Source of the DNA: Ignavibacteriota bacterium
GTDB taxonomy: Bacteria > Bacteroidota > Ignavibacteria > Tepidaquicellales > Tepidaquicellaceae
NCBI GenBank assembly: GCA_026390735.1
Contig: JAPLFJ010000006.1
Coordinates: 1-64,000, forward strand
Reading direction: 5' to 3'
Length of the DNA: 64,000 bases
In this document: positions 29,608 to 60,880 of the stretch, piece after piece
How positions within the stretch are numbered: position 1 is the stretch's first letter
Layout of the letters: the number at the start of each line of letters is the position of its first letter
Notes under the pieces: model-generated
What the model was told of the DNA's origin: nothing
Databases searched by the model: none
What the model saw: only the letters and a program-made list of their open reading frames with translations
Translations under genes and position numbers: made by a program

Positions 29608-29638
29608 TTGTTTTTCAAAAGATATTTTAGTATATTTG
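29608..29638 (+). promoter_or_regulatory. Promoter of 11-nt array locus A
   Basis: TTG (29608-29610) and TATATTTG (29631-29638) are exactly 20 bases apart. The same TTG-N20-TATATTT arrangement precedes the arrays at 35.5 and 60.5 kb, which argues that the loci are transcribed rightward. Confidence 0.6.
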
Positions 29639-29960
29639 TACTTAGTTATCTGAATAGGTATTTGCCTATAAACACCGTTGAGCATACCAATGAAATTCAG
29701 ATAATACCGAAAATCAACCTTTCAAAAAAAGAATCAGGAAAATGGCGCAGTAGTGGCGCACACGTGACGCAGTTTTGGCGCAGATGTTTGCTTAGAGCTG
29801 ACTTTGAGCACGCTGAGAGCATGCTGAAATGACACAGAATAGTACTGATTTTTATGCTAAAATACTCATCCCCTCTATCCCAAGCCTGTATAATATATAG
29901 ACAATTTTATAATAGTGTAATTACTTTTTTGGCTATTATTGTAATTATTCCTGTTAAGAT
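29639..29960 (+). ncRNA. Putative transcribed 11-nt array locus A
   Basis: The leader forms a long hairpin: TTATCTGAAT (29647-29656 region) is the exact complement of ATTCAGATAA about 35 nt later. An A-rich block (29724-29743) leads into eight in-phase 11-nt units, 29740-29827. The first four follow NNNTGRCGCAS; units six to eight begin GAGC. After the array, TGACACAGAATA and CCTGTTAAGA blocks are shared with locus B. No ORF spans it and the period is not a multiple of three. Function unknown. Confidence 0.5.
29740..29827 (+). repeat. 11-nt periodic array, locus A
   Basis: Units in order include AAATGGCGCAG, TAGTGGCGCAC, ACGTGACGCAG and TTTTGGCGCAG, then ATGTTTGCTTA, GAGCTGACTTT, GAGCACGCTGA and GAGCATGCTGA. 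Eight units stay in the same 11-nt phase. Confidence 0.8.
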
Positions 29961-29976
29961 TAATTCAACAGACAGC

Positions 29977-30075
29977 AGTACACATGGTATACACAGGCAA
30001 TACACTCTATATAGGGAATTAATACACTCCATATAGACTTTTAATACAGACTAAATACACACGGTATAGAGAAAT
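29977..30075 (+). repeat. Nine-unit 11-nt array, ATACAC type
   Basis: Nine consecutive 11-nt units begin with (A/T)ATA(C/G) or close to it; six carry TACAC or TACAG (for example TATACACAGGC, AATACACTCTA, AATACACTCCA, AATACACACGG). Alternate units pair into a visible 22-bp repeat. The array lies between locus A and the IS110 left region and could belong to either. Confidence 0.75.
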
Positions 30076-30084
30076 CTGATTTTT

Positions 30085-30400
30085 CAGGAGATATCTGGGT
30101 ATAAACGTACAACTCCTGCGGAGTGTGGAGCAGGAATACTGGAACAAGCTGGAAGCTTGTTTTACTTTCAAAAGCAATTTTGGTTCAAATCCTGAAAGAT
30201 ATAAATACACAAACTCTAATGGGAAAATGACCAGGGTCGGGATCTTGAATTACAAGAACTTATTGTGTTGGTGCCTTCCCAAGCAGGAGAGGCTGTGTGA
30301 AAACACCCAAAAAGGATGTCGGTATATTGGAAAAAGGTCTCACTTCCATTAGCGGTGCATAAATACTAATTTCAAGTATTTAAAAATTGGCATCTCAAAA
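30085..30400 (+). ncRNA. Structured left-end region of IS110 element, candidate bridge RNA
   Basis: This non-coding stretch precedes the transposase. It contains several hairpins: TCCTGC/GCAGGA (30114-30119 and 30130-30135), AACAAGC/GCTTGTT (30143-30149 and 30155-30161), TCTTG/CAAGA (30243-30257) and GTGT-GAAA-ACAC (30295-30306). IS110-group elements transcribe a bridge RNA from the segment upstream of the recombinase gene, whose two loops base-pair with target and donor DNA. I cannot fix the ends or loops without a covariance model. Confidence 0.45.
30361..30381 (+). promoter_or_regulatory. Hairpin before the transposase start
   Basis: AAATACT and AGTATTT form a perfect 7-bp stem with a 7-nt loop, 37 bases before the transposase ATG. 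It could end the candidate bridge RNA or limit transposase translation. Confidence 0.4.
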
Positions 30401-30417
30401 ATGAAAGGAGACCTAAA

Positions 30418-31449
30418 ATGTGTACGGAAAAGATAAGTACAAAAAGTGTTAAAATCAATAACGATAAATATGAGTATTATATTGCAATTGATTATTCACA
30501 AAGAAATATGGCAATAGCCACAATAAGAAATGATGGTAACAAACCCAGAGTTATAGATGTAGATTCAGACATAGATCATCTGAAAGCCTACTTAATTAGC
30601 TTAAAGGGAAGAAAGATAGTGACAATAGAAGAAACCACATCAACTCATTGGTTGTATGTAGAATTGTTTGAATACGCAGAGAAGATATTAGTATGCGACC
30701 CCTACAGAAATAGTTTATTAAGTGATGGACCGAAGACAGATAAGCTGGATGCTTCAAACCTTTGCAAACTATTAAGAAGCGGTCTATTAAAAGAAGTCTA
30801 TCACAGCTTAGACAAGAAGTATGAATTAAGACAACTTGTAAGTGAATATGAGCAATTAGTGAAGTTTGGTGTAAGGGTGAAGAATGAGAAATCTGCAATA
30901 TACAGAAGTATGGGAAAATCCTACCAGAAGAAAGAAGATATAGGAGACGATACACTTGCTTGGATAATAACCCAAAAAGACAAAAGGATAGACTTATACG
31001 AGAAGCAAAAGAAGGAATACGATAAAATGTTTTCCAAAAAAATAAGCCATGACACGGAATTAAAACATCTAAAGGACGTAACAGGCATAGGCACCATAGG
31101 AGCAGTAAAGATATTAGCAACAGTAATAGATGCAAAACGATTTAAGAATGAAGGTAATTATTTAAGCTATTGCGGCCTTGTAAAATATCAAAAGATGAGC
31201 GGCGGCAGAAATTATGGACAGAAGAAAACAAGATACAGCCGAAGGTTAAAGTCAGTATATAAAACAGCAGCAATGTCAGTCATCAATGGTAATAGTCCAT
31301 TAAGAGAATATTACGATTCATTGTTAAAAAGAGGGCTGTCAGAAGAAAATGCACGAAATCAATTATCAAGACGCATAGCAATAATAACATATGGAATATT
31401 AAAGACGGGTACGAAATACAACCCATATAAATGGAGAGAATCAAAGTAG
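30418..31449 (+). CDS. IS110-family transposase (DEDD recombinase)
   Basis: 343 residues, full length. The N-terminal RuvC-like domain has the DEDD set: Asp25 (AIDYS), Glu71 (TIEET), Asp108 and Asp111 (KTDKLDA). The C-terminal Transposase_20 domain carries LKDVTGIGTIGAVKIL and the candidate catalytic Ser261 in KMSGGRNYG. IS110 recombinases insert without terminal inverted repeats, guided by a bridge RNA. AAAGGAG lies upstream. The reading frame is intact, so the element could be active. It is flanked by long non-coding stretches on both sides. Confidence 0.95.
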   Translation: MCTEKISTKSVKINNDKYEYYIAIDYSQRNMAIATIRNDGNKPRVIDVDSDIDHLKAYLISLKGRKIVTIEETTSTHWLYVELFEYAEKILVCDPYRNSLLSDGPKTDKLDASNLCKLLRSGLLKEVYHSLDKKYELRQLVSEYEQLVKFGVRVKNEKSAIYRSMGKSYQKKEDIGDDTLAWIITQKDKRIDLYEKQKKEYDKMFSKKISHDTELKHLKDVTGIGTIGAVKILATVIDAKRFKNEGNYLSYCGLVKYQKMSGGRNYGQKKTRYSRRLKSVYKTAAMSVINGNSPLREYYDSLLKRGLSEENARNQLSRRIAIITYGILKTGTKYNPYKWRESK

Positions 31450-31993
31450 ACAGAAAACAAGACTAAATATAAAAGCACAACTAATTTGGTTAGAGTCCCT
31501 GAAAAGACTACCAATAGTTTAAAAGAAAAGAGCAGATGGATGATGTGGTAAAAAAGATAATGAGAAAGTTTATTCAAAAGAATATTATAAATTGTTTTAA
31601 AAAGTTGTTTTAAAGAAATGGAGAGAGAGTTCAACGGGGATGATGCAGCTCAACAAAATATAGGGCAATCCTTATTTTGTCGATGACATGCCAATTTGTC
31701 GGTTAACCCTCTCCGGTTTTATTCTAAAATTTACCGTAGCCCAAGTATCTACATGTTAGATCAGAGAGCTCAAATAGACGCATAGAAAAAACAATAAAAC
31801 AAACAGACATCGAGTAAAGAAAGAACGGCAACTAAAACAATAATAAACTTTTGTTCTTTTAAACAGGTATAAGTTCTACTAAGGAAGTTCGACCAAATGT
31901 CAGAACGGAGTATTAACTTTCGTTAAGGGTATAGTGTTTTCTCTTGACATTTTTTTCCATAGACATCCCCTTCTTTTTGTCATTCCCTTCTTT
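31450..31993. other. Non-coding region right of the transposase
   Basis: No convincing ORF. It holds an ACAAAATA/TATTTTGT hairpin (31653-31680) and a TTGGT-AGTC/GACT-CCAA imperfect hairpin at about 31482-31510. It probably includes the right end of the IS110 element and old intergenic DNA. GTCATTCCC units begin at its right edge. Confidence 0.45.
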
Positions 31994-32104
31994 TTGTCAT
32001 TCCCTGATGTTCTTACAGGGAATCCATAAACATCAAAGAATGGATTACCCAAAAAGTATTATCATTCAATATAGATTCCCGATAAGATCGCTCGGGAATG
32101 ACAA
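31994..32104. repeat. MITE-like GTCATTCCC/GGGAATGAC element, copy 1
   Basis: TTGTCATTCCC at 31994-32004 faces GGGAATGACAA at 32094-32104. Inside are ATTCCCTG/CAGGGAAT and ATTCCCGA/TCGGGAAT hairpins. A second, diverged copy of similar length lies at 33618-33726 in the same position relative to a paralogous gene. Confidence 0.75.
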
Positions 32105-32216
32105 GGTTGGGTAGGTGACTCCGAAGGAATTGTAGTTGAGAAGAATGATTCCATATCCCTCAAAAATGTGTATTATCTGAAATCCCAAAACATTAAATTA
32201 CAGCACAACCAATTGT

Positions 32217-33560
32217 ATGAAAAGAATATCATTACTCATATTGTTCCTGTTGTTTTTTGCCACGGCATTCCAGTCGGATAAGTTAATAACTCAGGGCTGG
32301 TATCAGCAGTTCTTTCCGAATTTGAACGGAAGCAGTATTACGAGCATTACTTTTCTTGATAGTCTTACGGGATATGCAGTGACAAACACAAACTCTACCT
32401 TGCAAGCTTATATCTTGAAGACTACTAATGGAGGTGATAATTGGAATATTAATTATACTTACACCCAAACAAATTCTAATTGGAATTTTGTGAAAATTGG
32501 ATTTGTAGATTCAAATACTGGTTATGCATTTGGTTGGACTGAAATGTTTAGAACAACAAATGGAGGTGCAAACTGGGAAGTCATCATAAATAATTTGTAT
32601 GCAAATGACATTGCAATAATAAATAAGGATACAATGTTAGCAGTAAAAAACAGTGGTTTTAACGGTGGTGTTTACCGCTCTACAAACGGCGGTTACAACT
32701 GGCAGGCAATGGGGCCGACAGGAGGAAGCGGTCAGCCATCTACTATTTACATGTACAACAAAAACATGGGATTCTGTCTTGGCGGTGAAATGCGTAAAAC
32801 CACAAACGGAGGTGTTAACTGGTTTGCAATACCCGGTGAAACATACACAAGTATAATGTTCGTTGATAGTTTGACGGGTTGGAAGTGTTATGACAGTATT
32901 AAGAAAACAACAAATGGCGGTTTAAATTGGTTTTCGCAACAAACTCCAAATGTCAGTCAAGGTTTTTGGGGTCCTTCAAGTTTCTCTGCCATTAACAAAG
33001 ATACCGTTTGGATGGTGGGTGCTTTAAGTAATTACACGAACCCCGTTAATCCAATATATAAAACTACAAATGGCGGTTTAAACTGGGGATATCAGAATGC
33101 CGATTCTACTCATATAGTAGGTCTTTTCGGGTTTATTCAGTTTGTAAATGACAAAGTAGGTTGGGCGAAGTCAGGTGGCCAAACTTACGAATTGCATACT
33201 GTAACAGGCGGTAACGTCACTACATTCTTCACAGGCATCAAACTCGTGCCAAGCATAGTGCCCGAAAAGTATTCCCTCGGACAAAACTATCCGAACCCGT
33301 TTAACCCAACGACAAACATTCCGTTCGAACTCAAAGAGCCTTCGCACGTAACTCTGAAAGTATTCGACGCCCGCGGTCGCGAAGTGAAAGAACTCGTCAA
33401 CGGACGCTGGGGCACAGGAAAGTTCATCGCCGATTTCAACGTCCACCTCGGCGGATCTGCGACCATCGCCACAGGAATCTACTTCTATCAGATTATAGTA
33501 TCGGGCGAATCCACTCACCAGATTTTTACGGAGACGCGAAAGATGATGTTTTTAAAGTGA
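32217..33560 (+). CDS. Secreted Ycf48/BNR-like repeat protein with sorting domain, paralogue 1
   Basis: 447 residues. Signal peptide (MKRISLLILFLLFFATAFQ). The body is built of Ycf48/BNR-like blades, each with a TTNGG(xN)W motif (for example KTTNGGDNWNI, RTTNGGANWEV, STNGGYNWQA), giving a predicted beta-propeller. The C-terminal sorting domain begins YSLGQNYPNPFNPTTNIPFEL and ends KMMFLK, so export by a type IX-like system is likely. A GC-rich insert (VHLGGSATI) interrupts the sorting domain compared with its paralogue at 33843. Function of the propeller is unknown. Confidence 0.87.
   Translation: MKRISLLILFLLFFATAFQSDKLITQGWYQQFFPNLNGSSITSITFLDSLTGYAVTNTNSTLQAYILKTTNGGDNWNINYTYTQTNSNWNFVKIGFVDSNTGYAFGWTEMFRTTNGGANWEVIINNLYANDIAIINKDTMLAVKNSGFNGGVYRSTNGGYNWQAMGPTGGSGQPSTIYMYNKNMGFCLGGEMRKTTNGGVNWFAIPGETYTSIMFVDSLTGWKCYDSIKKTTNGGLNWFSQQTPNVSQGFWGPSSFSAINKDTVWMVGALSNYTNPVNPIYKTTNGGLNWGYQNADSTHIVGLFGFIQFVNDKVGWAKSGGQTYELHTVTGGNVTTFFTGIKLVPSIVPEKYSLGQNYPNPFNPTTNIPFELKEPSHVTLKVFDARGREVKELVNGRWGTGKFIADFNVHLGGSATIATGIYFYQIIVSGESTHQIFTETRKMMFLK
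33436..33470. repeat. In-frame GC-rich palindromic insert in a sorting domain
   Basis: CCACCTCGGCGGATC lies where the neighbouring paralogue (about 35031-35048) has only a short ASQF coding stretch. A nearly identical CCCGCCTCGGCGGGTC interrupts the sorting domain at about 59512-59527. Both stay in frame. Confidence 0.7.
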
Positions 33561-33617
33561 CAAAGTAACAGAGTGACAAAGTGACAAGGTATTAGAGCGA
33601 GTAAGATACTCCTTAAT

Positions 33618-33726
33618 TTGTCATTCCCTCATGTTTTAAGAGGGAATCCATAAACATAAAGATTGGACGACCCATATAGTATCACCTGTAATGTGGATTC
33701 CCGATAAGTTCGTTCGGGAATGACAA
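33618..33726. repeat. MITE-like GTCATTCCC/GGGAATGAC element, copy 2
   Basis: TTGTCATTCCC at 33618-33628 faces GGGAATGACAA at 33716-33726. It corresponds to 31994-32104, and the following about 115 bases up to the start codon are also duplicated (AATGTGTATTATCTGAAATC is identical). Confidence 0.75.
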
Positions 33727-33842
33727 GATTGGGTAGGTGACTCCGAAGGAATGTTGCGGATAAGAAGAATAATCCCATATCCCCCAAAAATGTGTATTAT
33801 CTGAAATCCCAAAACATTAAATTACATCACACCAGAAGAAAA

Positions 33843-35138
33843 ATGAAAAGAATATCTTATATAATCATTTTACAACTGCTACTTACTTTTAATTATTGTA
33901 ACAGTCAGTGGTATCAAATCAACTTACCAGTTGCAGGTAGTGTTTACAAAATGCAGTTTACAAATACCAGTACCGGCTGGGCAACTGTTAAACAGACCAA
34001 CAATCACTATACTCTCATTAAAACTACAAATTCCGGCTTAAACTGGTTTTCGATTTATTCTGATTCTGCAAAGGTCATTACATTTCAATTTATCAATGAT
34101 ACGCTTGGTTATGCAATGGGTAAATATGAGGGATTTTATTTGATGTCTAAAACTTTGAACGGCGGAAATAACTGGACTACAATGCAGAGTTCATATTCTG
34201 ACGTTTATAGCGGCTTTTATATGGTAAATGCGGATACGGGATGGGTAAACGCGTTTGCACTTCCGACTCAAATTACATTAAGAACAACAAACGGATTTCA
34301 AACGCTCGAACAAATATCAAGCGGCGCCGGCGGTTCGTCTGCGACTTTATTTTTCTTCAAAGAAAAGTACAACGGAGAATATTGCGGTTACTTACTCGGA
34401 GCAGGCTTGTTTTGGAAAACAACAAACAGTGGTTTTACTTGGCAGCAAATTAGTACGGGTTCCTCTGATAATGTGAACAGCTTCAGTTTTGTAAATAAGG
34501 ATACAGGTTGGGTAGTGATAGGTGCTTTCACAAACAATAATAAAATACTAAAAACAAATAATGGCTGTTTAAGCTGGTCTACTCAATTTTTGGCAACATT
34601 AGGTAATGCACTCAATATATTCGCTTTAACTAAAAATAGAATATGGTGCGGTGCAACTTCCAATTTGGTTTTTACAAGCACAAATTCCGGTATCACGTGG
34701 GGGACACAAGCAAGCGCCATACATGCCAATGCTTGGATATACATGGTTGATTCATTATTAGGGTTTACCTGGTCGGGTAATGATTTTTATATGGCAAGGA
34801 CTACTAACGGCGGAGGGGCAATAACCGGCTTAAATCAATCCAGTACAGAAGTACCGGAAGAATATTCCCTCGGACAAAACTATCCGAACCCGTTTAACCC
34901 AACGACAAACATTCCGTTCGAACTCAAAGAGCCGTCGCACGTAACGCTGAAAGTATTCGACGCCCGCGGACGCGAAGTGAAAGAACTCGTCAACGGACGC
35001 TGGGGTAAGGGAAAGTTCATTGCCGATTTCGACGCTTCGCAATTCGCCACAGGAATCTACTTCTATCAGATAATAGTCTCGGGCGAAACCACTCACCAGA
35101 CTTTTGCGGAGACGAGGAAGATGATGGTTTTAAAGTGA
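33843..35138 (+). CDS. Secreted Ycf48/BNR-like repeat protein with sorting domain, paralogue 2
   Basis: 431 residues from ATG 33843 (MKRISYIIILQLLLTFNYCNS signal peptide); an upstream in-frame ATG at 33792 lies in the duplicated leader and is rejected. Propeller blades again carry KTTNSGLNWF, KTTNSGFTWQ and related motifs, but the blades have diverged strongly from paralogue 1, while the C-terminal sorting domain is almost identical at DNA level for about 150 bp (from YSLGQNYPNPFNP onward). This contrast points to gene conversion or selection for the export tag. It ends KMMVLK. Confidence 0.87.
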   Translation: MKRISYIIILQLLLTFNYCNSQWYQINLPVAGSVYKMQFTNTSTGWATVKQTNNHYTLIKTTNSGLNWFSIYSDSAKVITFQFINDTLGYAMGKYEGFYLMSKTLNGGNNWTTMQSSYSDVYSGFYMVNADTGWVNAFALPTQITLRTTNGFQTLEQISSGAGGSSATLFFFKEKYNGEYCGYLLGAGLFWKTTNSGFTWQQISTGSSDNVNSFSFVNKDTGWVVIGAFTNNNKILKTNNGCLSWSTQFLATLGNALNIFALTKNRIWCGATSNLVFTSTNSGITWGTQASAIHANAWIYMVDSLLGFTWSGNDFYMARTTNGGGAITGLNQSSTEVPEEYSLGQNYPNPFNPTTNIPFELKEPSHVTLKVFDARGREVKELVNGRWGKGKFIADFDASQFATGIYFYQIIVSGETTHQTFAETRKMMVLK

Positions 35139-35460
35139 CAATTTCAAATTTTAAAGTTTAAATTTCAAATTTCAAATTTACATTTAAAATTTCAAATTTG
35201 AAGAACGAACGCCAGCCCATTTCACGATGCATTCCTGAGCCAATAATAAAGCAATCTTTTTAATCCCGTAGGGATTATATATTGGTAGAAAAGATATGCC
35301 CCACAAACCCAATCCCGTTTAATAATTATGATTAATATGAAATCCCTATGGGATTTCTAATTCACTTATAATACATAAACCTAATACCATCTTTCATCAT
35401 TAAAATATTCACTCCTGGTTGAAGATCCGCAGTGACGGAAGTGGTACGTTTTTACTAAAA
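35139..35460. repeat. Intergenic repeats: AAATTTCAAATTT tract and two REP-like hairpins
   Basis: 35145-35200 is made of overlapping AAATTTCAAATTT units. AATCCC-GTA-GGGATT (35262-35276) and AAATCCC-TAT-GGGATTT (35340-35356) are short perfect hairpins of the CCCGTAGGG type that recurs between genes in this phylum. No gene is visible. Confidence 0.6.
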
Positions 35461-35476
35461 AATATTCTTTCCCCTA

Positions 35477-35507
35477 TTGACATTTAATAAAATATTTAGT
35501 ATATTTA
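35477..35507 (+). promoter_or_regulatory. Promoter of 11-nt array locus C
   Basis: TTG (35477-35479, within TTGACATTTA) and TATATTTA (35500-35507) are 20 bases apart, the same arrangement as at loci A and B; locus B also has TTGACATTTA. Confidence 0.55.
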
Positions 35508-35800
35508 TGTTTATTGTGTGAAGTGGATTCAATAATCTGCCGCTTTGCTAAATATAAATTGTTTTTTCCTTTAGAATAGCCTAATTCTATGAAAAAACAA
35601 CAAATAGGGCATTTATCCACTTCAAACACACTTCAAACACACTTCAAACGCACTTTTCCTTCGTTTCTCTTTCGGTTCACTGTCGTGTTCCTTATAGTCT
35701 CTATATATTCAACCCGTACAAAACTACCACCAAATCATTCATGGTCGTCTATAAGAGCAATGACCTTTATATTAAATTCAAACTCAACGCATCCTTATTC
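35508..35800 (+). ncRNA. Putative transcribed 11-nt array locus C
   Basis: A leader of 110 nt after the -7 element contains GAAGTGGAT (35519-35527), the exact complement of ATCCACTTC at the start of the array, and a TAGAAT/ATTCTA hairpin. The array of seven units follows, then CTATATATTCAA and GTACAAAACT blocks that resemble locus B. It lies about 140 bases before ispF, so a 5' UTR role for ispF is an alternative. Function unknown. Confidence 0.45.
35618..35694 (+). repeat. 11-nt periodic array, locus C
   Basis: CACTTCAAACA occurs twice, then CACTTCAAACG and CACTTTTCCTT, and in the same phase CGTTTCTCTTT, CGGTTCACTGT and CGTGTTCCTTA: seven units with C at position 1, T mostly at positions 4-5. 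Confidence 0.8.
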
Positions 35801-35836
35801 GATTGTTTTAATACTATAAAAATTTTAATTTAATGT

Positions 35837-36316
35837 ATGACAGATTTTAATTTCAGAATAGGTTACGGTTACGATGTTCACAGACTCGCAGAGGGCAGAA
35901 AGCTGATTCTCGGAGGCGTGGAAATTCCTCACAGCAAAGGTCTTGAAGGTCATTCCGATGCCGACGTACTGCTCCACGCAATATGCGATGCAATTCTCGG
36001 AGCGGCTGGTTTTCAGGATATAGGACATCAGTTCCCGAATACCGACCCTGCCTTCAAAGACATCTCAAGTTTAAAATTGCTTAAGCACGTCTATGATTTA
36101 ATATCAAAGGATGGATGGAAAGTCGGCAACGTTGATTCTATGATTATACTCGAAGAACCTAAGATTGCAAAGTACATTCCCGCGATGAAGAAGAATATCT
36201 CAGAGATTATCGGATGCGAACATATATCAATTAAAGCCACTACATCCGAAGGTCTCGGATTCGTTGGCGAAAAGAAGGGCTGCTCTGCAAATGCCGTTAC
36301 TATACTTCACAAATAA
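35837..36316 (+). CDS. ispF: 2-C-methyl-D-erythritol 2,4-cyclodiphosphate synthase
   Basis: 159 residues, normal length. Zinc ligands are Asp13, His15 (GYGYDVHRL) and His47 (DADVLLHAICDA); other hallmarks are GLEGHSDAD, DIGHQFPNTD and the C-terminal KATTSEGLGFVGEKKG. It forms the cyclodiphosphate in the MEP pathway of isoprenoid synthesis. Its stop overlaps the PAP2 start by one base. Confidence 0.97.
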   Translation: MTDFNFRIGYGYDVHRLAEGRKLILGGVEIPHSKGLEGHSDADVLLHAICDAILGAAGFQDIGHQFPNTDPAFKDISSLKLLKHVYDLISKDGWKVGNVDSMIILEEPKIAKYIPAMKKNISEIIGCEHISIKATTSEGLGFVGEKKGCSANAVTILHK

Positions 36317-38568: not shown

Positions 38569-40672
38569 CCTGAATAAAATTTAATACGACCTTATGCTTT
38601 TCGTAATAGTCCATGGCTTCTTCAATACTCTTGAAAGGACCGACTAAGACCCTGTATTCAAGACCGTTATCAATCTTTGTAGTACCTTCGACAATACAAT
38701 TCAGGTTATTCGATTTCAACTTTAGTTCAAGTTCACTCGCAGCGGACAAGTCATCAAACACTTTATTCTGAATGTATATCCTTTTTCCCAGTTGCCTGTA
38801 AATAACTCCGTAAAGATTTTTGACTTCAAAACTCTCTGTCTGACCTGATTCATCCTCGGCTGATAAATTTGCAGTATCCTTTTTTTCTATCGAATCACTT
38901 GATTTCTTCAGCATTGTACGAACTGAGTCACTCTTTCTGACACCGATTGTATCAGCAGTCTGATTGCCAGGAGATTTTGTGAACATGGTTTTATATACGT
39001 AAAAACCGAAGGCTGCCAGCAGAAACACGAAGAAGAAATAGAGGAATCCCTTAAAGAATTTTCCCTGCGTGTTTTTCTCTTCAGGTTCAACAGTAAATTG
39101 CGGCTTGAACTGTTGTTCGCTGTTCCTGAATATATCATCATAGGATTTTACTTCTTCTTCGGGTTTAAGATGCTCGATTATTCCGTCTGATTTCATATCC
39201 TGCAAAGCATCGGACAACGATTTAGGTTCAACATGCTCTTTCTCCGGTATCGGATCATGTATAATTATCTCAGGAAAGGTTTCATGTTTTTCAGGCTCTT
39301 GCTTTTCGACCTTGGAATCATCAATGAGTTTACCGAATATCTTCATTTCCTGACTCATTGGAGAACTTAACTCGGTTTTCTTTAGTTCTTCCTTCTTTTG
39401 TGAGAGCTCTTCTAATTCCCTGATACGATTTTCAAGTTCAGAAAACAATTCATTAGAGTCGTCCCCTGCTTTAGGAATTTCTTTAACTTCCGGTTCCTGG
39501 GGAATCTCAGGTTTATCATCAAAACCAAATAAGTCTTCAAAATTAGGAAAGTCAGTCTTATCCTGAGTTTCTTTTGTTTCGGATTCCTTTGGAATCTCAG
39601 GTTTATCAAAAGAACCAAAAAGGTCTTCAAATTTCGGGAAGTCAGTTTCACCCTGAGTTTCTTTTGTTTCAGGTTCCTCTTTTATTTCAGGCTTGGTTTC
39701 AGAATCAAAAAGGTCTTCAAACTTCGGGATTTCAGTTCTGTCAGTATCAGGAACAATAATCTCTTCGTGCCTTGTATCGGCATTAGCGTTATGCACATTC
39801 AGTTCTTTAATAATCTCTTCACGTCGTACTAAAATATCAAAGATTTCTTCTTTGATATTATCTATATTCATATCATCCTTAAGACTAACACGGATACCCG
39901 GTGTAAATGTATACTTTACCTCTTCTATTATTTTATTGTTTTCTGCAATCTGCTCTTCAGGGTTTTCCGTAAACTCGGTTAAAGGTATTCCCTCAGGTAA
40001 GATTATATCGACTGGATTATCAGCGAATACAGTCTGCTGACTGATGACACTCGCAACTACTTCTTCATTAAATATGCTTTCTTCGGGTTTTGAATCTGAT
40101 ATATTTTCTTCTTCGGCAACAGGATTTATGTCCGTGAATATACTCTGCTCCGTTTTCGACTCCATAATAACGTCTGCAGGTGTTACCTCTTCTTCTGCTG
40201 CTGTCTCTTCTGTAAAAGATTCCTGTTCTGTTTCTTCTTCTTTAACGAAAACCTCTTTAGTTATTAAACCTGTAGCAGGGCTTTCTTCTTCCTTTATTTC
40301 TTCTCCTGAAGAATCAAACTCAAAGTATAAATATTCTTCGTTATCAGCTTCCGGAATAATCTCTTTTACCTTAAGTATGGCTTTATGCTTTACATTCAGG
40401 GTGTTTACAACAATCGGCTCAAGATCCGAAAAGTTTTTATTGATTGCGTCTGCAAAGTTTTTTGCGGGTGAAAAGACAACGTACCTTTGTCTGACACCAT
40501 TAATAGTTTTAGTGTTAACATTAAATTTACCGAATTCAGGTATGTTTATTTTCTTACCCTTCTTAAATGCAGAAACCATCGATTCGAATATCCTGTCGAC
40601 GAATACTCCTGCCTCGATTTCTTCAACCCCGAATTGCTCAGATATCCTCTTTATGAGTTCAAATCTTATCAT
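38531..40672 (-). CDS. HU-like/SPOR-domain membrane protein
   Basis: 713 residues. The N-terminus (about 1-95) resembles the HU-like (CCDC81-type) domain (FELIKRISEQFGVEEIEAGVFVDRIFES, IPEFGKFNV). A long acidic low-complexity region follows, including three copies of an about 33-residue FPKFEDLFG-type repeat. One membrane helix (about 550-572) precedes a C-terminal SPOR domain (about 635-705; RVLVGPFKSIEEAMDYY) that binds denuded septal peptidoglycan. It may link the nucleoid or cytoplasm to the division site. It is the last gene of the four-gene operon and converges on lnt with a 38-bp overlap. Confidence 0.82.
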   Translation of the reverse strand: MIRFELIKRISEQFGVEEIEAGVFVDRIFESMVSAFKKGKKINIPEFGKFNVNTKTINGVRQRYVVFSPAKNFADAINKNFSDLEPIVVNTLNVKHKAILKVKEIIPEADNEEYLYFEFDSSGEEIKEEESPATGLITKEVFVKEEETEQESFTEETAAEEEVTPADVIMESKTEQSIFTDINPVAEEENISDSKPEESIFNEEVVASVISQQTVFADNPVDIILPEGIPLTEFTENPEEQIAENNKIIEEVKYTFTPGIRVSLKDDMNIDNIKEEIFDILVRREEIIKELNVHNANADTRHEEIIVPDTDRTEIPKFEDLFDSETKPEIKEEPETKETQGETDFPKFEDLFGSFDKPEIPKESETKETQDKTDFPNFEDLFGFDDKPEIPQEPEVKEIPKAGDDSNELFSELENRIRELEELSQKKEELKKTELSSPMSQEMKIFGKLIDDSKVEKQEPEKHETFPEIIIHDPIPEKEHVEPKSLSDALQDMKSDGIIEHLKPEEEVKSYDDIFRNSEQQFKPQFTVEPEEKNTQGKFFKGFLYFFFVFLLAAFGFYVYKTMFTKSPGNQTADTIGVRKSDSVRTMLKKSSDSIEKKDTANLSAEDESGQTESFEVKNLYGVIYRQLGKRIYIQNKVFDDLSAASELELKLKSNNLNCIVEGTTKIDNGLEYRVLVGPFKSIEEAMDYYEKHKVVLNFIQVMNPKKPNLLVF
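39470..39740. repeat. Three-copy tandem repeat inside the HU-SPOR gene
   Basis: Units of about 100 bp encode FPKFEDLFGSFDKPEIPKE-like blocks separated by ETKETQ. The copies are close in DNA sequence, so copy number may vary between strains. Confidence 0.7.
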
Positions 40673-55600: not shown

Positions 55601-55845
55601 CCTCTTGCTTTCAGGTCAGAAACAATCTCTTCGCCAAGTTTCTGCTCTCCACCACCGGATAGTTTCACAAGATACTCAATCACCCTTGTTTTCATTTCTT
55701 CGGTTGCCTTATTCGTGAAAGTGATAGCCAGAATATTCCTGTAATTTCCGGGATTTGTAAACGCAAGGTTTAAATACTCTTTTACGAGTGTACGTGTCTT
55801 CCCCGAACCCGCCGAAGCCTGATATATCAATAAATTTTTACTCAT
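52648..55845 (-). CDS. addA: AddA-like UvrD-family helicase-nuclease
   Basis: 1065 residues. Walker A ASAGSGKT (10-17), motif II DEFQDTSEFQW, motif III/IV region VGDVKQSIYRWRNGD, motif V VMTIHKSKGLESKVV, motif VI LLYVSFTRPKERLYV, and a C-terminal RecB-type nuclease (RPDRVMLKDDSAVLIDYKTG). It is the motor subunit of an AddAB-type recombination enzyme. It starts the two-gene operon. Confidence 0.93.
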   Translation of the reverse strand: MSKNLLIYQASAGSGKTRTLVKEYLNLAFTNPGNYRNILAITFTNKATEEMKTRVIEYLVKLSGGGEQKLGEEIVSDLKARGVPTKNFNLRKTAADVLCSILHDYSNFNISTIDSFCIRIIKSFAKELGLPVGFNLELDSAAVLDELTNQLLDTIGTDEFLTKYIEDYIMYKLDEGYTWNIDKDINTIGKEIFNEQFWQRKIKMKEDDVYESKEQTKVLIDEIRKVKYSFESKMTKYANEITDIIDLNKVDTKDLVGGNSTSIINYCIKISKGDFAEPYKTLRKRIDEGNSIFKSKSSYADTVDRLFAELVGYYDSNVKAYITSDVVFRTIYNIGVFSDLLSLLNTYRKDNRTILSTDINNFLRILISDDISPFIYEKVGVKLKHFMLDEFQDTSEFQWNNIKPLIVNSLSENNTSLIVGDVKQSIYRWRNGDMRLLLEGVERDLAGFQDMIQKDTLSVNYRSHKEIVDFNNRFFLRFKNNIVNSEKHEGENEYLAKSYEENLLCQKNNGSKNSGYININFFDYAKDSEISTNEFSNQRVKEILYELKKDGYKPKDILVLVRTADNSREVSQVITEEGYDVVSSLSLLVKNSPKVNLILGALRFITDSTDMLARTEMLYNYAKIENKDIALKNLFFDSKDYDGKLFLGLMPDEFFKENEKPKRLPVLNNLTSYELVEHIIGIFKLNKEADPYLIKFIDEVFKYNSEKESDAASFLEYWEEKKGEISINLPEEANSVRVMTIHKSKGLESKVVIIPYANWGLELDGKKEKIWTSTDQPPFNKASAYYINATQSAAESYFAKDYSEASKMTRLDNVNLLYVSFTRPKERLYVNVPAGRNASIANVIKDAVTDEYGEFIKDNRLEIGIRNKAPDDEPESGGLETMENFNSTPYYKKIIIRPSYKKLKVFENEKMKVKTDKGVVVHKLLSYIIKAGDIESALSKGLIEGIINQTEKEDYRKLLIAVINNRETKEWFEDKWEVKPESDILTKDGKVLRPDRVMLKDDSAVLIDYKTGKEEKDHCEQLDEYGAILGQMGYTKVDKYILYINDYKDEITVTVKNLNKGEQDV

Positions 55846-56032
55846 GTTGTTTTTTAATCTTGTACAAACTTACATAATATATTCAAGAAAATATTATCAT
55901 TTCGTGAGAATTTATTGGGAAACATATTTTTACAGACCTGTTTTAAATATTTGTAAAAATATATTGATAATTAATACTGTATTTTATATGTTATTTTCTA
56001 AAGGTGATATTTTCATAAATTAAAACAATGAA

Positions 56033-57910
56033 ATGAAAAAACTATTTACTTCTCTCGTATTACTATTACTGGTAATATTTCAGAATTCTTTTTCACAGAG
56101 TTTTCAAAGTGGAATGAATCTTCAAGGTCAGGAAGTTAAGCCAAGAGTCGTTAACGTTTCTGAATTACCGCAGTCGGTAATGCTATTGGAACAAAACTAT
56201 ACTCAGGAAAGAGGCAAACTGCCTGCTGACAGGAACACAGGTGACATGAAATCTTTAATAAGGGCACAAGAAGATAAAGCCACAAACGGTCCATCGCTAA
56301 GCATAAAAGGTTATGCAGGTCCGAATAAAAACGGATGGCAGCCTGCTGATGCAGACATTGCAACAGGAATGTTACATGTAATGGTTGTGACAAATGAACA
56401 ATTTCATATTTACGGCAGGAATAATTCTTTACCGCTAATTACCAGTAACACATTACAGAGTTTTTTCGGCAGACCAGGAAAGAATGTGTTTGACCCAAAA
56501 GTAGTTTATGACCCATGGAGAAACAGATGGATAATGCTGGCTTTTGAAAGAGACGGATTGTTTGCATATTACTGGCTTGCAGTATCACAAACGAGTGACC
56601 CTACAGGTTCATGGTGGACATACCAGTTCAACGCTCACATAGACGCATCCACTACAACAACAAACTGGGCAGATTATCCCGGATTAGGTATCACATCTTA
56701 TGATTCGCCATCGGATTCAACTTCGATAATTATTACATCGAATCAATATAATCAGGCAGATGCATTTCAATATGCAAAAATCAGGGTTCTGAAAGCAAAA
56801 CAGGTTTACGCAGGTCAGTCAGCCGGCTATTGGGATTTCTGGAATATGACAGATGCAAATGCAGGTAAGTCATTTACAGTAAAACCCGCGGTTCAGTGGT
56901 GGACAACTGCTTACGGGACAGCATATTTAGCCAATACTTATGGAGGTTCAAACAATTATTATACCATCTGGAGAATAGACAAACCATTATGGTGGTCAGC
57001 AACGGGCGGTATAACTTTAACAAGACAGTCCACAATTACAGTAAATGCATATTCTGTTCCAACGAGTGTTAAGCAACCCGGAAGCGTTATAGTAGATGCC
57101 GGCGACTGCAGGACACAGGATATAATATTAACCAAAGGAACAAATTCAAGTAACGTTGCAAAGTTATTCATGTATACTGCGGTTCCTTCAAAATATGCAT
57201 GGACAGTAAATGATACTAACAGCGTAATCTCATACTGCAAACTTAACGTAACAGATAACACAGTTGATGCACAGCAATTGTTCGGCAGCACGGGTCTCTG
57301 GTTCACATATCCGAAAGTAGCCCCTAAATATAAAACACCTTATAATTCAGATACAGTATTCATTTCATACATATCAGGCGGAGCCTCTGTTTATAATGAA
57401 TCAAGAGTAATAGCTCACGACAGAGCAACAGGAATCGGCCCATCGTATTTAATACAGGCAGGTGGCACAGCACACTACGGTTCATTCAGATTCGGCGATT
57501 ATTCGGGTGCCTGTATAGACCCATTGCAGAATGGGAATGTATGGGTTGTTTCGATGAGAAATAACAATTCAAACTGGGGAACGGGAATCGGATACGTAAG
57601 CACAACAGCAATTTCAGGGATATCTCAGGAAAACGAATTCATACCAAGCAAATACACACTGAGCCAGAACTACCCTAACCCATTTAACCCGACTACAATA
57701 ATATCATTCGGATTACCAAAGTCAGAAAATGTATCATTAAGAATTTACAATTCACTCGGAAAAGAAGTTGCAACTTTAATGAATACAAACTTAGAAGCAG
57801 GTAACTATAAAGTTGACTTTGACGCGACTAATCTTACAAGCGGAATTTATTTCTACAAATTAACCGCAGGTTCGAATACTCTTTCAAAGAAAATGTTATT
57901 AATAAAATAA
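56033..57910 (+). CDS. Large secreted protein with C-terminal sorting domain
   Basis: 625 residues. Signal peptide (KKLFTSLVLLLLVIFQNSFSQ). The body (about 90-540) has VFDPKVVYDPWRNRWIMLAFERD, DPTGSWWTYQFNA and YPGLGITSYD segments that recur in a family of Bacteroidota surface proteins of unknown function, with many Trp and Tyr. C-terminal sorting domain starts YTLSQNYPNPFNPTTIISFG and ends KKMLLIK. It is monocistronic and followed by a terminator. Probably surface-attached; activity unknown. Confidence 0.87.
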   Translation: MKKLFTSLVLLLLVIFQNSFSQSFQSGMNLQGQEVKPRVVNVSELPQSVMLLEQNYTQERGKLPADRNTGDMKSLIRAQEDKATNGPSLSIKGYAGPNKNGWQPADADIATGMLHVMVVTNEQFHIYGRNNSLPLITSNTLQSFFGRPGKNVFDPKVVYDPWRNRWIMLAFERDGLFAYYWLAVSQTSDPTGSWWTYQFNAHIDASTTTTNWADYPGLGITSYDSPSDSTSIIITSNQYNQADAFQYAKIRVLKAKQVYAGQSAGYWDFWNMTDANAGKSFTVKPAVQWWTTAYGTAYLANTYGGSNNYYTIWRIDKPLWWSATGGITLTRQSTITVNAYSVPTSVKQPGSVIVDAGDCRTQDIILTKGTNSSNVAKLFMYTAVPSKYAWTVNDTNSVISYCKLNVTDNTVDAQQLFGSTGLWFTYPKVAPKYKTPYNSDTVFISYISGGASVYNESRVIAHDRATGIGPSYLIQAGGTAHYGSFRFGDYSGACIDPLQNGNVWVVSMRNNNSNWGTGIGYVSTTAISGISQENEFIPSKYTLSQNYPNPFNPTTIISFGLPKSENVSLRIYNSLGKEVATLMNTNLEAGNYKVDFDATNLTSGIYFYKLTAGSNTLSKKMLLIK

Positions 57911-57920
57911 GGATTACATA

Positions 57921-57951
57921 CAGGCGTTCCCGGTTTATGCGGGAACGCCTG
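57921..57951 (+). terminator. Intrinsic terminator
   Basis: CAGGCGTTCCCG and CGGGAACGCCTG form a 12-bp perfect stem with a 7-nt loop after the 625-residue gene. Few Ts follow, so efficiency is uncertain. Confidence 0.8.
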
Positions 57952-57977
57952 TTATTTAAAAAGTTTAAATATTAAGA

Positions 57978-58292
57978 ATGAAGAGATTTGCGTTATACAG
58001 TTTAGTATTGCTGACAGCAATCGGAATAGTTTTCATTTCGATGAGGTTTGTATCATCAAAAGATATAAGCGGCAAATACACTGGAAAAGATACTATACAG
58101 CAAGGTTGCAGTAAAACCGAGGTAACTCCAAACAGTACCGACAAATGCGGTAAATGCTGTTGTAAGAAGAGTTGTGATAAGAGTTCAAAAGAAGAAAAGA
58201 AAGATGAAGAAGTTCCAATCGGAAAGAATCCAAACCTTAACAATCCTGACACAACAAAAAGTAATATAACCCCGCAGGAAGTAAAACAGTAA
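57978..58292 (+). CDS. Small Cys/Lys-rich exported or membrane-anchored protein
   Basis: 104 residues. An N-terminal hydrophobic segment (about 4-24) may be a signal anchor. A central CGKCCCKKSCDKSSKEEKK cluster places five Cys in ten residues between charged stretches; the tail is low-complexity. I do not recognise a family. The cluster could bind metal or form disulphides. It is six bases ahead of the next sorted protein, so the two are probably co-expressed. Confidence 0.65.
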   Translation: MKRFALYSLVLLTAIGIVFISMRFVSSKDISGKYTGKDTIQQGCSKTEVTPNSTDKCGKCCCKKSCDKSSKEEKKDEEVPIGKNPNLNNPDTTKSNITPQEVKQ

Positions 58293-58298
58293 AGTCTT

Positions 58299-59609
58299 AT
58301 GACACGAATATTAACAGTGGTATCAGCAATTATGTTTTTTGCTATACCACTGTTTTCACAAAATACCTGGACTAAACAAACATCAGGTTACAGCGAGAAT
58401 TTCAGGAAAGTAGTTTTCAGTGATTCTTTGTACGGATGGATAGCCGGAGATTCGGGACTGATAGTAAATACTACAAACGGAGGAAACAACTGGGTTACTC
58501 AAAAGAGAAATCCAAATGACTACATAATAGATATCTCTTTTCTCAACAGATTATACGGATGGTGCATCGCCTGGATGATTTCGGGCAGCAATATGCAGTC
58601 AATAATATACTCAACAACAAACGGAGGGAATAACTGGACAACGACAGTGTATCCGGATTCCACAACATTACTTAACACGGTTTATTTTTTAAATTCATCT
58701 ACGGGTTTTTTAGGAACCACATACAGTTCAACAAAATCAATCTTAAAAACTACCAACGGAGGGAACAACTGGTATCCTGCAAACGTTGATACAAACTTTG
58801 CGGCATCTTTTCCGGTAAAGACATTCAAATTCATTGATTCCAACACAGGAATTGCGGCAGGCGGATACCTTGATGTATGCGGAGTCGTATGGAAAACAAC
58901 TGACGGTGGAATCAGCTGGACGTCAGGAATGGTTGGAAGCGAGCCATATAACTCAATAGCATTCCCGAATACAAACACTGTAGTAATAGCAGGAGGAGAT
59001 TATGAATACGGAGTAAGCATAAACTACTCTACAAACAGAGGAGTGAACTGGAATACTTACTTTACGGGATACTTTGGAATAGGCTATTCCCTGTCATTCA
59101 GGACCGCAACTGAAGGATGGATTGCGACAGGTTTTTCCCAGATGTTTCTGAAGTCAACAAATTCAGGATTGAGCTGGGTTAATGAGGACACACCAGACAG
59201 CACAGCAATATACTCACTTACTTTTCCAAATCAAAGAACTGGATGGGCTGTGGGCGACAATGGTGCAATATTAAAATTCAGCGGTGACCCGATAGGAATA
59301 ATAAATACTGAAGGAAAAGTACCTGATTCATATTCGCTAAGCCAGAACTATCCAAACCCGTTTAATCCGTCTACAGTTATCCGTTATCAGTTGTCCGTTG
59401 TCAGTTATGTATTGCTAAAGGTTTATGATTTGCAGGGACAGGAGGTGAAGACTCTTGTAAAAGAGAGGTTGAATGCAGGAACGTATGAGGTGAAGTTTGA
59501 TGCCCGCCTCGGCGGGTCTTCGAGTGAGTTGACGAGCGGAGTGTATTTTTACAGTTTGAGTGCAAACGGGAAAGTGATACAAACACGTAAGATGGTAGTC
59601 CTGAAATAG
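58299..59609 (+). CDS. Secreted Ycf48/BNR-like protein with sorting domain
   Basis: 436 residues. Signal peptide, then beta-propeller blades with NTTNGGNNWVT, STTNGGNNWTT, KTTNGGNNWYP, KTTDGGISWTS and GWAVGDNGAILK motifs, as in the two paralogues near 33 kb. The C-terminal sorting domain begins YSLSQNYPNPFNPSTVIRYQL and ends KMVVLK. It contains an in-frame GC-rich insert coding for ARLGGSSSEL. Exported by a type IX-like system, function unknown. Confidence 0.87.
   Translation: MTRILTVVSAIMFFAIPLFSQNTWTKQTSGYSENFRKVVFSDSLYGWIAGDSGLIVNTTNGGNNWVTQKRNPNDYIIDISFLNRLYGWCIAWMISGSNMQSIIYSTTNGGNNWTTTVYPDSTTLLNTVYFLNSSTGFLGTTYSSTKSILKTTNGGNNWYPANVDTNFAASFPVKTFKFIDSNTGIAAGGYLDVCGVVWKTTDGGISWTSGMVGSEPYNSIAFPNTNTVVIAGGDYEYGVSINYSTNRGVNWNTYFTGYFGIGYSLSFRTATEGWIATGFSQMFLKSTNSGLSWVNEDTPDSTAIYSLTFPNQRTGWAVGDNGAILKFSGDPIGIINTEGKVPDSYSLSQNYPNPFNPSTVIRYQLSVVSYVLLKVYDLQGQEVKTLVKERLNAGTYEVKFDARLGGSSSELTSGVYFYSLSANGKVIQTRKMVVLK
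59508..59530. repeat. In-frame GC-rich palindromic insert, second example
   Basis: CCCGCCTCGGCGGGTC is a strong hairpin-forming element inside the sorting-domain codons and matches the element at 33436-33470 (13 of 15 bases over its core). Confidence 0.7.
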
Positions 59610-59624
59610 TTTCCGATTTAAGGT

Positions 59625-60383
59625 CTAATCGTCATACTTTATTATATTTTTGGTGTAGTCTTTCTTTTTATCTTCGGGAATAAAATCAACAAGTTCTTCG
59701 AAGAAAGTGTCAGTCCATTCGTACTTATTCTTCAGGTCATTATACTTAACAGCAGCAACCATAAGATAAGCTTTCTCTGCTAAGTACTTAACCTGTTCAG
59801 CTCTGTAATACTGACGGAATCTTAAAGAAGTATATACATCACCGCTATCCTGTTCAATCGTTTGAAAATCAGTACCCGAGTAAAAACTTTTCCTCCTTAT
59901 AAAACCATCATCAACTTCATCAAAATATCTGTCAAGAATAAATACACAGAATACATCATAAGGCGGTTCAAGATGCTTGGGGATTGCACGTTCGAGTTTA
60001 AAATCGAATGTAATGTAAGAATCTTCAATAACAATGTTCTTAACAGAACTTTTGTCAAAGCTGACAGGAGTAATTCCAATGCCGGAAAGTAAACGTTCAT
60101 AAGCGACAAAGTCTTTATTACGAATCATAAGTTTAGTGTTGTCGTTCAAACCTTCAACATCAAGAGTTTTCCAGAATTCTCTGAGTTTAGGACAGCGGCG
60201 AAGTTCGTGATTAAGTCTTTGCCTTCTCGAGAAAACTTTTCGCATAGTTTTCACTTTTTCGCTCTTAGTATTATACCTGCTTGGCACGGGAGAAATATAC
60301 GGTTTACCATATCTTAAGCGGGAAATAAAATTTCCGAATTTACCTCTTAGTTTTCCAAAGGAGCTTTTATCAAAATACGCCAT
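59625..60383 (-). CDS. Conserved hypothetical protein
   Basis: 252 residues, no signal peptide and no membrane helix. The N-terminal 60 residues are rich in Arg/Lys (FGKLRGKFGNFISRLRYGKPYISPVPSRY, then RKVFSRRQRLNHELRRCPKLREFW) and loosely recall DUF6266-like proteins of Bacteroidota; the rest appears to be a beta-rich domain. The compact start and good coding character support a real gene. The role is unknown. It is convergent with the sorted-protein gene and followed on its upstream side by array locus B. Confidence 0.7.
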   Translation of the reverse strand: MAYFDKSSFGKLRGKFGNFISRLRYGKPYISPVPSRYNTKSEKVKTMRKVFSRRQRLNHELRRCPKLREFWKTLDVEGLNDNTKLMIRNKDFVAYERLLSGIGITPVSFDKSSVKNIVIEDSYITFDFKLERAIPKHLEPPYDVFCVFILDRYFDEVDDGFIRRKSFYSGTDFQTIEQDSGDVYTSLRFRQYYRAEQVKYLAEKAYLMVAAVKYNDLKNKYEWTDTFFEELVDFIPEDKKKDYTKNIIKYDD

Positions 60384-60480
60384 ACAAAGAATAAGGTTGA
60401 TTTGCGATAAAATATAAAATTATAAGGAACAAATGAATGGAATAAAATGAATACGGCAATAATTATTTCAGAGAAAAGGC

Positions 60481-60511
60481 TTGACATTTACAAGATGTTT
60501 TATTATATTTG
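60481..60511 (+). promoter_or_regulatory. Promoter of 11-nt array locus B
   Basis: TTG (60481-60483, TTGACATTTA) and TATATTTG (60504-60511) are 20 bases apart, the same as at loci A and C. Confidence 0.6.
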
Positions 60512-60880
60512 TAATACATTACATTAGGGAACCTAAAACACAATTCAAGAGTATAATAAGTGAACAGTCCCTGATTTTTGACCAAAAACCTGCATTTCTA
60601 AAAAAAGAATCAAGAAAATAGCGTGTTAGTGACGTGAAACTAGCGTGAATCTGACGTGAATTTCGCGTGAGATTAATTGTATATTCTCCTTAGATCTTAC
60701 TGAGAGCTGGTAGTAAGCACCGACAAAGTGACGACAGAATACCATATAATTGCTATAATATTTCAAGGGTATTTGTACAAAATTTATCCCTACACTAGTG
60801 AAAATTTCCAAAGACTTCGTGTTGTAATCCTGCTATTCCTGTCCCAACAAAATTATCCTGTTAAGACGTATCAAAATCCG
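60512..60880 (+). ncRNA. Putative transcribed 11-nt array locus B
   Basis: The leader holds a UUAGGGA/UCCCUGA stem (one G-U) around a 36-nt loop, an A-rich block at 60600-60619 that differs from locus A by one base in twenty, then five units following NNNTRRCGTGA. After the array GAGCTGG, TGACGACAGAATA, TGCTATAATA and CCTGTTAAGA blocks are shared with locus A. No ORF. Function unknown. Confidence 0.5.
60616..60670 (+). repeat. 11-nt periodic array, locus B
   Basis: Five in-phase units: AAATAGCGTGT, TAGTGACGTGA, AACTAGCGTGA, ATCTGACGTGA, ATTTCGCGTGA. Weaker in-phase units continue (GATTAATTGTA, TATTCTCCTTA, and AAGTGACGACA at 60726-60736). Confidence 0.85.

Follow-up and report, generated by a model that had tools for sequence, protein, structure and literature searches.

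Arrays of 11-nt units beside a family of paralogous genes in an Ignavibacteriota genome: candidate sites of proteins distantly related to DUF6266

Introduction

Here, we describe trains of 11-nt units in a 64,000-nt stretch of DNA from an Ignavibacteriota bacterium (GCA_026390735.1, contig JAPLFJ010000006.1, positions 1 to 64,000; henceforth “the window”), together with a family of paralogous proteins whose genes carry such arrays upstream. The window is part of contig 42 of a 4.02-Mb genome (G000) and holds three trains, near 29.6, 35.5, and 60.5 kb (loci A, B, and C), as well as the gene of one family member, a 252-aa protein. A preliminary description of the three loci read them as one family of transcribed elements. 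That interpretation is partly supported, and the paralogous protein family with private arrays is a larger fact that lies beyond it.

Several described systems share part of this layout. In RAYT/REP systems, short repeats specific to each paralog occur both close to the gene and at other places, the protein has an HUH motif, and the REP units are palindromic. The array family is like them in the first respect but lacks conserved HUH histidines (no position is histidine in at least half of 94 sequences), and its units are non-palindromic direct repeats with a length of one helical turn. In type III toxin-antitoxin loci (ToxIN, for example), a gene for a small protein is likewise preceded by a tandem repeat array, although the units there measure tens of nucleotides as against 10–11 nt here, and arrays of the type seen at loci A and C would be transcribed away from the gene. 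No Pfam or NCBIfam match to the ToxN family was found, only chance-level rows from single members, including one to the antitoxin CcdA at E 0.13. The preliminary description had rightly set the trains apart from CRISPR, in which repeats of at least 20 nt alternate with unrelated spacers; here, the units are 11 nt long with cores of 6–7 nt.

PhoP boxes are described (PMC4832192) as 7-bp direct repeats with a 4-bp spacer. The A and C arrays resemble such OmpR/PhoB boxes in their direct repeats of about 7 bp and their 4-bp spacers. They differ in that cores vary among paralogs and arrays run to four and more units; moreover, 33 array-linked proteins gave no receiver or winged-helix Pfam match. 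For parC of plasmid R1, PMC4949242 mentions a 22-bp fragment that contains two iterons. The array-linked proteins, unlike ParR, have no ribbon-helix-helix Pfam match, are encoded on chromosomal contigs, and come as many paralogs with many cores. The ribbon-helix-helix fold is also missing from the Foldseek/VIA rows, where absence excludes nothing, and no actin-like gene for a ParM-like partner was seen among 20 proteins scanned, the neighbors being only partly annotated.

Every system seriously compared thus fails a defining feature or stays inconclusive. The one family to which we can relate these proteins, DUF6266 (PF19781), has no function in Pfam, and we found no paper on it in a search that left most subscription literature outside. 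We therefore rate the system as new, in keeping with the earlier statement that no described family has these traits: none turned up in the libraries searched or in the accessible literature under the terms used.

Arrays beside the genes

Upstream 11-nt arrays accompany the genes of this protein family. We compared the 300 nt upstream of family genes with those of other genes at the same loci (60 loci in 36 genomes of the class, 61 of 61 family genes used). A lag-11 score of ≥22/33 was reached by 35/61 family genes and by one of the 135 others, and lag 11 was the top lag, ties included, for 37/61 as against 9/135. Across lags 5–30, lag 22, the double of 11, gave 14 family genes versus none, and lag 7 gave 10/61 versus 6/135.

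Within G000, a search with one paralog returned 21 matches (14 in the congener G004). Three more full-length genes came from further contigs (C29 at 52.2 kb, C16 at 127.2 kb, and C56 at 145.3 kb), so that the family has at least 24 genes in this genome. Among the 21, an upstream lag-11 array was present in 17 at ≥20/33, a threshold used without control genes, and in 15 at ≥22/33, for which the control count above exists.

Most of these paralogs have arrays with a core of their own. Read on either strand, the cores include ACCGCA (C1, the paralog on contig 1), CCATCGG (C32), GTGAATGCGGG (C58a), AACCCGT (C9), ATAATGCA (C35), TATATCGCA (C43), and GTACACTA (C55a). One core is common to C1 and C68, and those of C46 and C58b are similar. 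In the orthologous G000/G004 pairs that were inspected, the core is kept. The presence of an array beside most paralogs, and its usually paralog-specific type, suggest that each protein recognizes a private chromosomal address. This agrees with the proposal in the preliminary description that an array might specify a bound protein, in that a linked protein family was indeed found.

Array likeness also follows protein likeness. For the 58 arrays that score ≥22 among 94 upstream regions (61 + 21 + 12), the Mantel correlation between protein distance and array distance was 0.62, with 0/2000 permutations reaching it. The relation holds among close homologs; where protein identity falls below about 40%, arrays are no more alike than unrelated ones, which would be expected from private specificities and also from drift.

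A subfamily of 23 genes (L224 to L266) indicates where such an array may sit relative to transcription. Those of its genes that have an array carry it ahead of a promoter-like block, which contains TACAGTG in 20/23 and is followed some 20 bases on by a TAnnATTG-like box, then by a purine-rich site and the start codon. Since they precede the putative promoter block, these arrays probably lie outside the mRNA of that gene. TACAGTG may serve a special sigma factor as its −35 box, or else a second regulator as its site.

Arrays away from the genes

We scanned 1.26 Mb, approximately 31% of G000, including the window. Lag 11 gave 30 peaks at ≥29/44, gene-linked ones among them, whereas other lags from 7 to 29 gave 0–17; the highest were lag 22, the double of 11 (17), and lags 7 and 24 (12). 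The autocorrelation check proposed with the preliminary description therefore comes out in favor of a real periodicity. The stretches were picked partly for holding family genes, which biases the share of arrays that lie away from any such gene (“orphans”).

From the scans, 22 orphans were picked by hand, leaving aside low-complexity or short-period peaks, second peaks beside family genes, and L306:18990; locus A and the arrays on contigs 37 and 39 were found by homology rather than by the lag scan. Each orphan was compared with 20 gene-linked arrays, using per-array counts over 200 column permutations, uncorrected for multiple tests. For nine of the 22, likeness to one gene-linked array exceeded all 200 permutations: locus A, C37, and C39 best match C28, the paralog on contig 28, and the remaining pairs are L271 with C35, L312 with C32, L315 with the C29 gene at 52 kb, L318 with C58a, L319 with C1, and L320 with C43. 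A tenth, L302 with C29, was equaled by one permutation of 200. Together, the ten point to eight of the 20 gene-linked arrays. One further pair made by eye, L310 with C56, was equaled in 41/200 permutations and is not borne out. In at least one matching pair, C1 with L319, the resemblance extends to the letters of the spacers and is thus partly due to descent from a common copy.

Arrays stand beside the gene for most paralogs, usually with a core type of their own, and some types are copied elsewhere. Two orphan types have no protein partner among the arrays compared: one around TTGGTCTCTNA (L287:10305, L299:5042, and L313:4919) and one around AGTATCATTTC (L296:14097 and L306:12777).

The array-linked proteins and DUF6266

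A profile built from 33 members matches 52 of 391 class genomes; as at most seven candidates were scored per genome, copy numbers are lower bounds. The 33 scanned members have no Pfam, NCBIfam, or PHROGs family in common. The best single rows were DUF5643 in Pfam (E 1.3e-4, 1/33), a nameless PHROG (0.0078, 2/33), and one NCBIfam entry (0.029, 1/33), and no sequence in the Protein Data Bank matched at E ≤ 10.

The AlphaFold2 model of the 252-aa protein (pLDDT 89, pTM 0.81) has predicted N-terminal beta strands at residues 12–32, helices at 42–88, and a C-terminal beta sandwich within 110–235. The full-length model gave generic Ig/FnIII sandwich matches (Z ≤ 6.1), with no known DNA-binding domain among them. 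Across 94 sequences, residues 1–62 carry a mean net charge of +8.5 (minimum +4), whereas residues 105–235 average −4.1. G10, G14, and G17 are invariant, and the near-invariant residues of the family are G, W, P, F, and N. Residues 1–62 contain no position with D/E in 60% of sequences and none with H in 50%; acidic positions at ≥60% are 139 and 252 only, both in the C-terminal part. A basic N-terminal domain with this residue pattern fits, without proving, a nucleic-acid-binding, non-enzymatic protein.

Searched across the phylum (395 genomes), the family profile matches 45 genomes, of which 21 lie outside the class. The outside matches mostly cover the first 55–90 residues (one spans 155), with E down to 3.7e-12, in proteins mostly of about 215 aa. 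All six outside-class proteins that were scanned match DUF6266, at 55–331 bits against a cut-off of 23.4. The reverse does not hold: the Pfam model gave 0/33 matches at E ≤ 1 to array-linked class proteins. DUF6266 proteins are thus like the array-linked ones in having an N-terminal part that the family profile recognizes, and unlike them in that the Pfam model misses the latter.

Many DUF6266 and DUF6266-like genes also have upstream arrays, with a period of 10 or 11. We examined 38 distinct genes with enough upstream sequence, counting identical proteins once; those beyond the six were found by the Pfam model or the family's own profile, and only some were scanned. Sharing ties, lag 11 was top for 21.7 and lag 10 for 6.5, so that one of the two led in 28.2/38, as against 3.5/21 neighboring genes (1.5 for lag 11 and 2.0 for lag 10). 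Scores of ≥20/30 were reached by 15 genes at lag 11 and 6 at lag 10, versus 1 and 0 of the neighbors. In letter shuffles for the first 35 genes, 20 was reached in 1/350 per lag, and lag 10 or 11 was top in 54/350. As to sampling, one earlier locus was too short upstream, three of 22 new loci had no usable start, and a later five loci gave four with a start and three with enough upstream; the remaining loci of the last search, mostly repeats of genes already sampled, were left out. Close relatives from one family are over-represented, several of them with weak or no arrays.

The loci of the window

In the 64 kb, only three places reach ≥27/44 at lag 11 (29785, 35618, and 60616), two of them at ≥29. 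Lag 12 also reaches 27/44 at three places but 28 nowhere; for several other lags, there are one or two such places. All three loci have, on the forward strand, the layout first described for them, namely TTG, exactly 20 bases, TATATTT(G/A), and then a train, and the reported 8, 7, and 5 units were found again (as 4 + 4, 7, and 5). From the box to the first unit, we measured 104, 110, and 107 bases at A, B, and C. The earlier figures were 101, 110, and 104; the difference at A and C comes from the choice of the first unit's start.

The promoter-like sequence of locus A, read from the sequence, is TTG, 20 bases, TATATTTG (29608–29638, box at 29631). A predicted 5′ hairpin follows at 29646–29704, with a closing stem of 29646–29655 and 29695–29704 that rests on folding and on covariation over 13 leaders, and then a constant block, ACCGAAAATCAACCTTTCAAAAAAAGAATCAGGAAAAT, placed by alignment (29706–29743). 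The first array has four TGRCGCANNNN units (29743–29786), with the core type of the C28 paralog. The second, seen in the sequence and in the lag-11 scan, has four units with a core around TGAGAGC (29787–29831); it is shifted by one base relative to the first, its first unit being 12 bases long (a one-base slip).

Locus C repeats this order. Its putative promoter has the same TTG, 20 bases, TATATTTG (60481–60511, box at 60504), and folding and covariation predict a hairpin at 60523–60575 (closing stem 60523–60530 and 60568–60575). The aligned constant block lies at 60581–60619, and five TNRCGTGNNNN units, the last reading TCGCGTG, at 60619–60673 (sequence, lag-11 scan, and ortholog). Divergent from it, on the reverse strand at 59625–60383, is the gene of the 252-aa protein, assigned to the array-linked family by homology, its AlphaFold2 model, and the upstream array scan.

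Searches by BLAST and profile found seven copies of this promoter-hairpin-motif-array element in G000 and six in G004, on contigs 456, 224, 136, 339, 225, and 293 (the last weak, at 44.6 bits), which makes 13 leaders and confirms that the element is real and multi-copy. Paralogs of the 252-aa protein hold the same divergent position next to the element on contigs 28, 51, and 55. The proposed leader profile search of class genomes thus yielded further copies, confined to these two genomes: with the sequence profile R1, whose filters lose weak matches, no further convincing member appeared in 391 class genomes. A G388 match (E 6e-4) was set aside because it reads like coding sequence and has no array. 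Scanning genome and viral contigs for exact patterns returned the G004 contig and four other stretches, two of which were inspected and have no array.

As had been claimed, the outer parts of the element are conserved and the core varies. The TTG-to-box spacing is 20 in 11/11 copies measured. Between the −10 box and the first unit lie 103–107 bases in 12 of the 13 leaders and 116 in the remaining one, and these intervening bases differ greatly. The closing stem changes on both arms across copies, and the variable stretches can still pair. Own arms have a mean stem energy of −13.2 kcal/mol versus −8.4 for arms of different copies, and 0/20000 permutations reach the native mean. The proposed covariance check thus comes out positive, although the permutation takes copies as independent when at least two pairs are orthologous, and 0/20000 therefore overstates. 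The C293 copy of G004 does not form a stem with these arms. Transcription, which the preliminary description assumed at all three loci, is predicted for A and C from the invariant promoter spacing and the covarying stem. The automatic structure of R1 placed seven pairs in the array and missed the 5′ stem, and R1 was therefore used as a sequence model.

The constant block, in its most typical form ACCGAAAANCAACCTTTCAAAAAAAGAATCARGAAAAT, is followed by 4–5 units near TRRCGYRNNNN, and in several copies by a second, looser 11-nt train. By eye, a reading frame that spans block and array stays open in some copies but meets stops in others, for which reason we rejected the array as a conserved gene. 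The orthologs of A and C on G004 contigs 224 and 136 keep both gene order and core (CGTG in 4/5 units of the latter); the pair formed by C55 and G004:C225 was judged from leader, core, and linked protein only. In G002, the gene upstream of locus A is also present but no element is visible by eye, and divergence is too great for borders to be drawn. A second conserved stretch, approximately AGATATTAT...TTTTGTAACTA, lies some 100–150 bases past the first array, at 29899–29945 in locus A and at the same place in most of 11 copies of the A/C type (alignment, by eye).

Locus B is a second type. Its putative promoter, TTG, 20 bases, TATATTTA (35477–35507, box at 35500), precedes a 5′ segment (35516–35528) that, in a fold of this single locus, is predicted to pair with the start of its own array. 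The array has seven units (35618–35694), three of them CACTTCAAACR and the rest weaker, seen in the sequence and the lag-11 scan. It resembles L295:10269 (array similarity 9.06/11), where the same layout recurs as TTG-N20-TATATTAT with 108 bases to the array as against 110. At the level of sequence, then, the three loci are not one family: R1, built from A/C-type leaders, fails to find locus B, and the block said to be shared before the trains of A and B in fact joins A and C. The claim that cores differ among loci holds for B; those of A and C both fit TRRCGYR and are variants of one type. No protein partner of the locus B/L295 type was identified among the gene-linked arrays compared, and the 600 bases upstream of ispF hold no counterpart of locus B, either in G004 or in the four other genomes inspected.

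Rfam 15 gave no match at gathering score across the window. Between 29.5 and 36 kb, it gave three matches, all far below gathering, while the 60.5-kb locus was searched at gathering score only.

What do the arrays bind?

On balance, we think it probable, if far from secure, that the arrays are iterated sites of sequence-specific, probably non-enzymatic nucleic-acid-binding proteins, distant relatives of DUF6266; the case rests on sequence comparison and structure prediction. As to the ligand, we lean toward DNA. A turn of B-DNA takes 10.5 bp, and the occurrence of both lags 10 and 11 fits this. The basic N-terminal beta-sheet domain would read the 6–7-bp core of every unit. With a spacing of one helical turn (10 or 11 bp), the units would align the protomers along a single face of the DNA, and binding there might be cooperative, aided by the beta-sandwich C-terminal domain. 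An array beside its gene could serve self-regulation. At loci A, B, and C, where the array lies 104–110 bp downstream of the putative promoter and within a predicted RNA leader (structured at A and C), bound protein might act as a roadblock or switch for the RNA of that leader.

Several observations weigh against this explanation. Scores fall below 22/33 for 26/61 class genes and 6/21 G000 paralogs, and 13/22 orphans are not above every permutation. Below 40% protein identity, the correlation with array distance drops to 0.04–0.10, and the likeness of close homologs' arrays could come partly from shared ancestry of flanking DNA. Modeled alone, the N-terminal domain has no clear match (Z ≤ 3.0) and no known DNA-binding fold. 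The arrays of A, B, and C lie downstream of a promoter, as expected of an RNA element. Five of 18 orphan contexts (L271, L302, L313, L318, and L320) are between convergent reading frames, where the operator of a neighboring gene is not expected. Finally, arrays are strand-asymmetric (G 0.145 versus C 0.27 on the gene strand), which could suit RNA; in an orientation test (same 4.63, column-permuted 4.56, opposite 4.36), the global core consensus in gene orientation is weak, and the orientation signal is mostly base composition.

The asymmetry and the convergent contexts, together with the leader of A and C, which has a covarying 5′ stem, and the fixed promoter-to-array spacing (103–107 in 12/13 copies, 110 and 108 at B and L295), are what one would expect if the arrays were transcribed as small structured RNAs, the paralogous protein coating their 11-nt units as a ribonucleoprotein. 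A turn of A-form helix, at 11 nt, would match the unit length. We nevertheless judge an RNA ligand rather unlikely, given that 53 arrays outside the A/C clade show no promoter enrichment (6.40 divergent, 6.17 same strand, and 6.31 shuffled), that DUF6266 loci have period 10 as well as 11, and that A and C would be transcribed with the G-rich strand, whereas B would be transcribed with the C-rich strand. Gene and array might instead form a mobile or selfish cassette akin to RAYT/REP, whose protein acts on its own repeats and whose protein-less descendants are the orphans. The dispersal of many paralogs in one genome, the tandem gene copies at L283 and L151, and the likeness of orphans to one paralog's array, at least once with spacer letters (C1 type, L319), would all agree with it. 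The residue pattern does not, with no histidine position in half of the sequences, acidic ones only at 139 and 252, and G, W, P, F, and N as the near-invariant residues; nor does the conserved gene order of the A and C orthologs in G004, and plasmid and phage records had no match for the two proteins tried. We regard this as decidedly unlikely.

Partition, anchoring, or nucleoid-organizing sites, like parC iterons with ParR, would also be one-helical-turn direct repeats, lying close to a gene whose protein has a basic domain and at sites away from such genes as well; with neither a ribbon-helix-helix protein nor a filament partner recognized among the proteins scanned, and more cores per genome than a partition system needs, we give this very little credence. 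An origin of the trains in slippage or chance periodicity, without any function, is barely tenable. Tandem repeats do arise easily in AT-rich intergenic DNA, and family genes show a raised lag 7 in their upstream DNA as well, but mostly the core alone repeats while spacers differ, lag 11 is singled out and tied to one gene family with its core kept in orthologs, and the gene linkage contradicts such an origin.

A wider and more tentative picture, which we regard as possible rather than probable, would be a phylum-wide recognition system: DUF6266-like proteins would share a new nucleic-acid-binding domain, a dozen or more orthogonal protein-site pairs would coexist in one genome, each core repeated once per helical turn, and trans sites would include structured RNAs at a fixed promoter-to-array distance. 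Were this true, a testable job could be given to a domain whose function is unknown and which occurs in several families of bacteria within one phylum, the natural pairs would offer a readable recognition code, and the 10-/11-nt intergenic trains that annotation passes over would be explained. Should plain self-repression be all there is, the system would rank as a new variation on operator-binding regulators, with the fold, the many private specificities, and the orphan sites still to be accounted for.

Neighboring features of the window

Some further features of the window may be useful to annotators. An IS110-family transposase gene (PF02371, PF01548) lies at 30418–31449 on the forward strand, about 0.6 kb downstream of locus A; IS110 elements carry a bridge RNA in non-coding DNA before the transposase gene. 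Upstream of locus B are two similar tandem genes (32217–33560 and 33792–35138), with a C-terminal sorting end by eye, and ahead of each is one of two similar stretches with GTCATTCCC-type repeats (31960–32150 and 33600–33760). A 90-base tandem repeat of 2.7 copies lies within a long open reading frame at 39494–39737. In the intergenic region after locus C (60928–61106), two direct repeats are present, TATGTCGTCCCGCTGGGACTTT and GCATTCCACTCTATCTCAAGCAGGATG, each of them twice.

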